64,000 nt of DNA from positions 1,736,001 through 1,800,000 of the forward strand of contig NZ_WRXM01000001.1 in assembly GCF_010119205.1 (NCBI RefSeq), given 5' to 3'. Shown piece after piece: positions 59,441 to 60,307 of this stretch. Both the position numbers and the translations under genes were made by a program. The DNA is from Haloarcula limicola. Lineage in GTDB: Archaea > Halobacteriota > Halobacteria > Halobacteriales > Haloarculaceae. The notes below the pieces were generated by a model. It saw nothing but the letters and a program-made list of their open reading frames with translations. It ran no database searches and was not told the DNA's origin. Numbering within the stretch: position 1 is the first letter of the stretch; the number at the start of each line of letters is the position of its first letter.

Positions 59441-59512
59441 GCCTGGGTAGCTTAGCGGTAAAGCGCGTCCTTGGTAAGGACGAGACCCCGGATTCAAATT
59501 CCGGCCTAGGCT
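59441..59512 (+). tRNA. tRNA-Thr (anticodon GGT)
   Basis: The 72-base cloverleaf has the acceptor GCCTGGG/CCTAGGC (one G-T pair), a D-arm with AGCTTAGCGGTAAAGC, the anticodon stem CGTCC/GGACG with loop TTGGTAA (anticodon GGT, reading ACC), and a T-arm CCGGA/TCCGG with loop TTCAAAT. There is no intron and no encoded CCA. The 3' end is duplicated 143 bp downstream. Confidence 0.95.
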
Positions 59513-59656
59513 TTTTCCACGAACTACGTCGCGGAGTTCCATCTCCGCGACTCACTGTGAGCGGACAAGCCGGACACGGAATTTGAATCGAGAGAAGACG
59601 CAGCGCGAGCGAAGCGAGTGACCGTCTTCGCGTAGTTCAAATTCCGGCCTAAGCTT
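59493..59656. other. Direct repeat of the tRNA-Thr 3' end (attachment-site-like)
   Basis: TTCAAATTCCGGCCTA from the T-loop and acceptor of tRNA-Thr (59493-59508) occurs again at 59636-59651. The match goes on past one mismatch (G/A) to GCTT, giving 20 of 21 identical bases. A shorter inverted copy, GGAATTTGAA, is at 59578-59587. This is the arrangement left by integration of a mobile element at a tRNA gene, followed by loss of most of its content. No integrase gene is present. Confidence 0.6.
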
Positions 59657-59741
59657 CGTCCGACCACATTTCTGCGAGGCGCTCCGTCGCCGAGCGACCG
59701 CTGTAGCGGTAGTTCGAATAACAGAAAAGGAATGTGGCCGC

Positions 59742-59855
59742 TCAGGAGCAGTCGGGACAGGGGTTGCAACCTAAGCAGAAATAGTTACCGCAGTTCGGAC
59801 ACCAATCCATGTCCGTACGAGGCTTCTCTTTATGACATCGGGTACACATACCCAT
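59742..59855 (-). CDS. Tiny cysteine-rich (four CxxC) zinc protein
   Basis: A 37-residue protein can be read from the ATG at 59855. It has eight Cys in four CxxC pairs: CTRC (4/7), CPNC (19/22), CLGC (27/30) and CPDC (33/36). Two zinc sites are likely. A TATA box TTATATAATAA on the minus strand (about 59877-59888) lies 25-30 bp upstream of the ATG, fitting a leaderless transcript. The codon use is more AT-rich than neighbours. It is divergent from the zinc protein at 59996. Confidence 0.7.
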   Translation of the reverse strand: MGMCTRCHKEKPRTDMDWCPNCGNYFCLGCNPCPDCS

Positions 59856-59875
59856 GAAATCTATACATGATTATT

Positions 59876-59891
59876 ATTATTATATAATTGT
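59876..59891 (-). promoter_or_regulatory. TATA box of the tiny Cys-rich gene
   Basis: On the minus strand, AATTATATAATAATAATAAT occupies about 59870-59889. Its TTATATAA core is centred about 27 bp before the ATG at 59855. That spacing is typical of leaderless haloarchaeal transcripts. The divergent gene at 59996 lies 105 bp away and may use a separate promoter. Confidence 0.5.
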
Positions 59892-59995
59892 TCCTGATAC
59901 ACCATTCATATACCAGCTCGCCACTTCTATCACAACATGGACAGTTACGGTCCACTAACGGCGGATGGGGACGGAATCGAACAGCGTGACGGGGC

Positions 59996-60307
59996 ATGAC
60001 CTGTCCGATCTGCGGGGGCGAAGTCGAGGGCGACACGGAGACTTACGTCAACCTCGTCTGTGACGAGTGCGACGACAGAGCGGTGAACGAGAACGGAGAC
60101 GAACCGTGGCACGGCTGGCCGTCCGGTGAAGAACCGGAATCAAAAGAGGGGGCGGTTCAGTCGACTCCCGATCGAGGCGAGAATCCCGTGTTCATCGACG
60201 GCCAGAAGTGCTGGCGAAGATATCGCTTCGGGGGGTGGGTTACGATGAAAGACACGCACGACTGCGATAGCCTCGAAGAGTTCTACGAAGCACACGGGAT
60301 GCGGTGA
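59996..60307 (+). CDS. Zinc-ribbon protein of unknown function
   Basis: The 103-residue protein starts MTCPICGGEVEGDT and has a second Cys pair in LVCDECDDR (about 22-25), making a zinc ribbon. The remainder (FIDGQKCWRRYRFGGWVTMKDTHDCDSLEEFYEAH) has conserved aromatic residues. I do not recognise a family. It is located just past the duplicated tRNA-Thr end, divergent from the 37-residue Cys-rich gene, so both may be cargo of a lost or decayed element. Confidence 0.65.
   Translation: MTCPICGGEVEGDTETYVNLVCDECDDRAVNENGDEPWHGWPSGEEPESKEGAVQSTPDRGENPVFIDGQKCWRRYRFGGWVTMKDTHDCDSLEEFYEAHGMR

Follow-up and report, generated by a model that had tools for sequence, protein, structure and literature searches.

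Downstream repeats of tRNA genes are known from Escherichia coli, in which tandem units (rtT) follow right behind tyrT and each carry a copy of the tRNA 3' end. Bacterial REP/BIME palindromes form conserved hairpins of polymorphic presence that are not known to be bounded by tRNA ends. In archaea, integrative elements targeting tRNA genes restore the tRNA gene, duplicate its 3' end, and place new DNA at the tRNA (PMC8371274). Short, transposase-free elements with palindromes or inverted repeats, i.e., PATE, SMR, and MITE, were described in Haloquadratum (PMC3119063); in the parts of that survey considered here, PATEs have IS605-type near-terminal palindromes and do not duplicate their target, and the palindromes of other elements serve as insertion sites for SMR-A elements.

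The window analysed here is the whole 64-kb stretch of DNA, which corresponds to G000:C1:1736001–1800000 of a haloarchaeon and contains a gene for tRNA-Thr(GGT) (59441–59512, + strand; called by ARAGORN and matched by Rfam RF00005 with 66.8 bits). The last 20 nt of this gene (TTCAAATTCCGGCCTAGGCT, 59493–59512), corresponding to T54–N73, recur downstream at 59636–59655 (TTCAAATTCCGGCCTAAGCT, + strand) in 19 of 20 bases, and the base after the copy is a T that also matches, yielding 20/21 bases in total. At up to three mismatches the 20-mer occurred twice in the window versus 0.00 times expected from 100 shuffles, so the duplication reported in an earlier note on this DNA is real. The 123 bp between the tRNA gene and its copy are structured and non-coding (fold of 59505–59735, z = −4.7). 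Directly after the discriminator base, they begin with a first hairpin delimited by sequence and fold (H1, 59513–59565, + strand), and an H1 resembling it was also found behind tRNA-Thr in two congeners (L009, L016). Next comes invT (CGGAATTTGAATC, 59577–59589, + strand), in which the T-loop and T-stem are copied in inverted orientation; this copy had been noticed before and forms a long hairpin with the direct one. It is followed by the conserved hairpin H2 (GAGAGAAGACGCAGCGC-GAGCGAAGCGAG-TGACCGTCTTCGCG, 59590–59632, + strand), identified by covariation and by a match of the covariance model R1 to G000:C1:1795575-1795642 (59575–59642 of the window) at an E-value of 2.5e-15. The direct copy of T54–N73, recognised by sequence comparison and carrying one mismatch, closes the unit. 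No integrase was found in the 123-bp interval, as the earlier note had stated, nor was an integrase remnant, and no Rfam covariance model matched within 59500–59740 up to E = 1. The adjoining region (59656–59707, + strand) was read by eye as the start of a second, decayed unit with an H1 of a different type and without invT-H2-T; a similar H1 directly follows tRNA-Thr in two further congeners (L004, L013).

A search of the genome itself retrieved DNA similar to the interval behind other tRNA genes. The repeat at tRNA-Thr is one unit of a hairpin-forming family that lies behind many tRNA genes in nearly all Halobacteria tested, and not the scar of one lost element. Such a tRNA-tail unit is a non-coding segment of about 80–150 bp that adjoins the tRNA 3' end without a gap, is built in the order H1 (directly after the discriminator base), inverted T-loop, H2, and an exact 20-nt copy of T54–N73 from the very tRNA it follows, and can be stacked in tandem. 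Within the own genome, 18/43 tRNA genes (tRNA identities are ARAGORN calls) are followed, no more than 450 bp downstream, by a copy of their own last 20 nt with up to three mismatches, several of them by tandem copies, versus 1/1508 tests with foreign tRNA ends, the single match being a neighbouring tRNA gene itself. The same comparison across the retrieved DNA comprised 230 distinct tRNA loci, a set enriched by a pattern scan for the H2 end and the T-loop, and returned the own last 20 nt (up to three mismatches) downstream of 131 loci versus 0/671 for foreign tRNA ends. An old inert repeat or a chance similarity, for which the short length is the sole point in favour, is ruled out by these controls together with the 0.00 occurrences expected in shuffles, and its probability is practically nil.

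The boundaries of the copy are sharp. Across 177 copies, identity per position was 94–100% from T54 to N73, and dropped to 59% or less just past N73 and to 49% or less upstream of T54, with the exception of a conserved GG that is a copy of positions 52–53. As a G precedes 15/16 copies that stand behind tRNAs having A53, the copy begins at T54; the tRNA-Thr of the window likewise has A53 versus a G at the copy. The distance between tRNA and copy is mostly 80–130 bp and exceeds 200 bp in only 5/135 first-copy distances. A strong match of the inverted copy to the local tRNA was ruled out (4.2 of 9 vs. 3.4), and the weakness of this match means that local matching rests on the direct copy. Two genes of the own genome, both with units, were called tRNA-Trp(CCA) by ARAGORN (G000:C1:242221, L292; G000:C1:358911, L086), and the intron-containing call at G000:C1:358911 may be wrong and represent another tRNA.

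The fold was analysed in an alignment, made without structure information, of 50 invT-H2-T segments drawn from many genera and tRNAs. The proposed fold paired 92.5% of the cells and was accompanied by 104 double changes, compared to 34 ± 6.5 in shuffles, and pairing fell to 29–47% when the partner strand was slid along. The tip of H2 harbours a conserved GA/GA pair of mismatches; a kink-turn reading of the internal loop was rejected, as the sequence does not fit. On the tRNA-sense strand, G-U exceeded A-C in two counts (29 vs. 9 and 97 vs. 28; the cells are related and not independent), which gives a weak hint that this strand does the folding, be it as RNA or as single-stranded DNA. The motif CGAGCGAAGCGAG at the H2 tip occurs 25 times in the own genome versus 8 times for the reversed control pattern, and 8 of the 25 occurrences are located just behind tRNAs, all 8 on the tRNA strand.

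Model R1 matched 141/145 Halobacteria genomes (55/58 genera) with up to 34 matches per genome, the only genomes without a match being G045, G051, G083, and G152. Among 295 genomes sampled across the phylum, 51 were R1-positive, all of them within the order, and no genome outside of it was positive. All 24 matches in the own genome lie behind a tRNA and on the tRNA strand, one of them behind an extra tRNA call near C1:242,000. In a distant genome (G073), this applied to 28/30 retrieved matches; the remaining two follow apparent attR ends of other elements, with a tRNA-Thr(CGT) about 11 kb upstream of one and no tRNA in the 13 kb retrieved for the other. Altogether, 29/31 inspected R1 matches were within 700 bp of a tRNA, and none of these 31 revealed a large autonomous element that combines an integrase with R1-type ends. 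The scan for the H2 end and T-loop pattern, among the matches listed, returned many haloarchaeal genera and some bacteria. Among these, the copy in the haloarchaeal matches nearly always agrees with a tRNA 76–416 bp upstream, and the bacterial matches inspected were inside a tRNA gene or had no tRNA nearby.

Units are gained, lost, and rearranged. At the tRNA-Thr locus, their number and type vary strongly across 29 congeners, one of which (L008) has a tRNA-Asp-type unit behind tRNA-Thr. Between the own genome and a sister species, exact presence or absence of tRNA-proximal units was observed at 8/42 shared tRNA loci by comparing the sequence that follows the copy in one genome with that following the tRNA in the other. 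Flank-match scores at these loci were at least 0.53, and mismatched pairs had a 99.9% point of 0.42 and a maximum of 0.60 among 3669; the Trp-called and Arg-TCG loci scored 0.53 and rest partly on reading, and Lys-CTT is ambiguous in that its flank also matches without offset. An insert between tRNA and copy that is absent from the sister species was observed at tRNA-Leu(CAA) (L079, G000:C1:157068), and this insert seems to contain a second copy of the tRNA 3' half, into whose variable arm a hairpin has been set. In arrays of at least two copies, the proximal copy was cleaner in 12 cases, the distal one in 1, and both were equal in 27, kinship being ignored in these counts. Blocks of units were found duplicated, with array types such as A-B-A-B-C and A-B-A, and some units share only H1 or only H2, i.e., they are chimeric half-units. 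These arrays and half-unit swaps show recombination at both the T copies and invT, and ordinary unequal recombination would also yield the A-B-A-B arrays. Every H2 pair of at least 93% identity involved two genomes; both members followed the same tRNA in 20 pairs and different tRNAs in 12 (kinship ignored), and 0 such pairs were found at two tRNAs of one genome. Hence, no recent hopping between tRNAs is indicated, and recent hopping of a single unit among the tRNAs of one genome was rejected. An insertion at a fixed short target, a feature of IS605/PATE-type elements, was likewise discarded, since units begin directly after the discriminator base, the neighbours of which vary. We have high confidence in the unit family and in this behaviour.

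The earlier note had interpreted the 21-bp repeat as the footprint of a past integration, i.e., as the attR that an integrative element, since decayed, or a micro-island left in tRNA-Thr. The duplicated tRNA 3' end and the interval without an integrase would fit this interpretation, and so would the integrase elements present at the same tRNA: a Phage_integrase-type ORF was found in an insert at tRNA-Thr(GGT) in seven congeners (L088, L090–L095), with the assignment in L092 resting on an N-terminal integrase domain, as its Phage_integrase match was below the cut-off. In one more congener (L096), two inserts with long repeats lie in tandem, and the one ORF tested there was not recognised as an integrase. 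The far repeat of the inserts, where found, begins in or just after or near the anticodon stem and is longer than the repeat of the window, which starts at T54; hence, integrase inserts at the syntenic locus do exist, but those with a far repeat found are not bounded by the 21-bp repeat. In most cases, the inserts are located between the tRNA and the unit arrays or H1 hairpins. Thus, tRNA-Thr(GGT) is an integration hot spot, as had been suspected, and the units form a separate layer. The boundaries of the repeat and its presence behind other tRNAs rule out a simple att scar. The attR interpretation in general is largely refuted by the class-wide recurrence and very unlikely; the interval is a covarying, conserved unit that many tRNA genes have behind them, which also speaks against it.

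Variable DNA beyond the unit also speaks for capture at this site. The two small genes that had been taken for zinc proteins exist as cysteine-rich ORFs, one of 37 aa (59742–59855, − strand) and one of 103 aa (59996–60307, + strand), both known from their translations and located outside the unit. The 103-aa CxxC ORF belongs to no Pfam family. Homologues occur on megaplasmids of haloarchaea, and in the sister species a 65% identical one lies close to tRNA-Phe and tRNA-Val. The ORF was not found at the tRNA-Thr locus in the other congeners retrieved. Because of this and the megaplasmid homologues, the ORF is best read as putative variable cargo. The protein was noted in the window, at L118 (1885–2190), and at L119 (2457–2762). 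The 37-aa ORF, which contains several CxxC motifs, had no tblastn match in the retrieved loci and is likely variable cargo as well. A duplication and zinc genes shared by all relatives, which would have indicated old non-mobile sequence, were not found, unit content varying strongly among 29 congeners. Taken together, the observation of the earlier note was confirmed and its interpretation partly supported.

How units come and go can be explained by recombination with a crossover in the T-loop. As the crossover would fall at the T-loop, the tRNA gene would be restored each time and newcomers would land beside the tRNA, and copies in both orientations would follow from the near-palindromic T-loop (TTCRAA). 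A putative recombinase that acts on the T-loop/H2 palindrome in trans would be the most likely agent, the main alternative being ordinary recombination between T copies, either homologous or mediated by microhomology. That the tRNA-Thr repeat closes a tRNA-tail unit and that units are gained and lost by T-loop crossover, likely through a recombinase in trans, is in our estimate about an even call as a whole, and the recombinase part taken separately is tentative and falls somewhat short of that. Homologous recombination among units that are kept for an RNA function would likewise fit the block duplications and the absence of hopping between tRNAs.

Such a function is the core of a different explanation, by which the units would act at the RNA level as structured 3' trailers: tRNA transcripts that read through would fold into H1 and the invT-H2-T stem, with a putative role in termination, 3' processing, or protein binding, and the tRNA-end copies would arise and stay alike by homologous or slippage recombination as in tandem repeats. 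The strong covariation, the fixed strand and spacing, the near-universal presence in the class, and the block duplications are consistent with this, and the G-U excess on the sense strand fits selection on an RNA as well. However, no tRNA seems to need a unit, because fewer than half of the own tRNAs have one and the sister species differ in which, and the fold leaves the close match of the copy to the local acceptor strand unexplained. RNA trailers are a possible explanation to which we give serious weight but towards which we do not lean.

The units could also resemble integrons, in that the T-loop would be a platform comparable to attI, and the folded invT-H2-T strand would be recognised by its structure as a counterpart of attC. 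The addition of units next to the platform, the fixed orientation, and a palindrome whose structure is conserved while its T arms vary with the tRNA would be in line with this. However, no gene cassettes were seen between copies, few first-copy distances being above 200 bp, and neither a recombinase in general nor an integron integrase was found linked to the arrays, so that an integron-like system appears very improbable. A more far-reaching view, in which tRNA genes across the class would serve as platforms for cargo-free hairpin units added by a recombinase that is guided by structure and crosses over in the T-loop, is unlikely but deserves consideration; if true, a recombination system without gene cargo would have shaped the tRNA 3' flanks of a whole class.

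If the unit family is as described, an unnamed repeat family with a conserved fold of its own sits in the 3' flanks of numerous tRNA genes in almost every haloarchaeon, and duplications of haloarchaeal tRNA 3' ends should not be called integration scars before they have been checked for units. This raises the questions of which enzyme adds or removes units, whether the fold acts as RNA or as single-stranded DNA, and whether units alter tRNA expression or influence the use of tRNA genes by integrating elements.

No description of the units was found in Rfam or in the literature searched, which included few subscription papers and is thus weak evidence of novelty. With the archaeal integrative elements (PMC8371274), the units share the restoration of the tRNA, the duplication of its 3' end, and the placement of DNA; they differ in being 80–150 bp long, non-coding, without integrase, and bounded by a repeat of exactly T54–N73, whereas the repeat of integrase elements at the same tRNA is longer. 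Like PATE, SMR, and MITE (PMC3119063), the units are short, transposase-free, palindromic, and haloarchaeal, but copies of tRNA ends are not described for these elements in the parts of the survey considered. REP/BIME palindromes and the units are both conserved hairpins of polymorphic presence, but REP/BIME palindromes are not known to be bounded by tRNA ends. Like rtT, the haloarchaeal units are stacked in tandem behind a tRNA gene and each carry the tRNA 3' end; however, rtT is known from one locus in E. coli, whereas the haloarchaeal units follow many tRNA genes per genome across the class and additionally contain an inverted T-loop and the covarying H2 palindrome.
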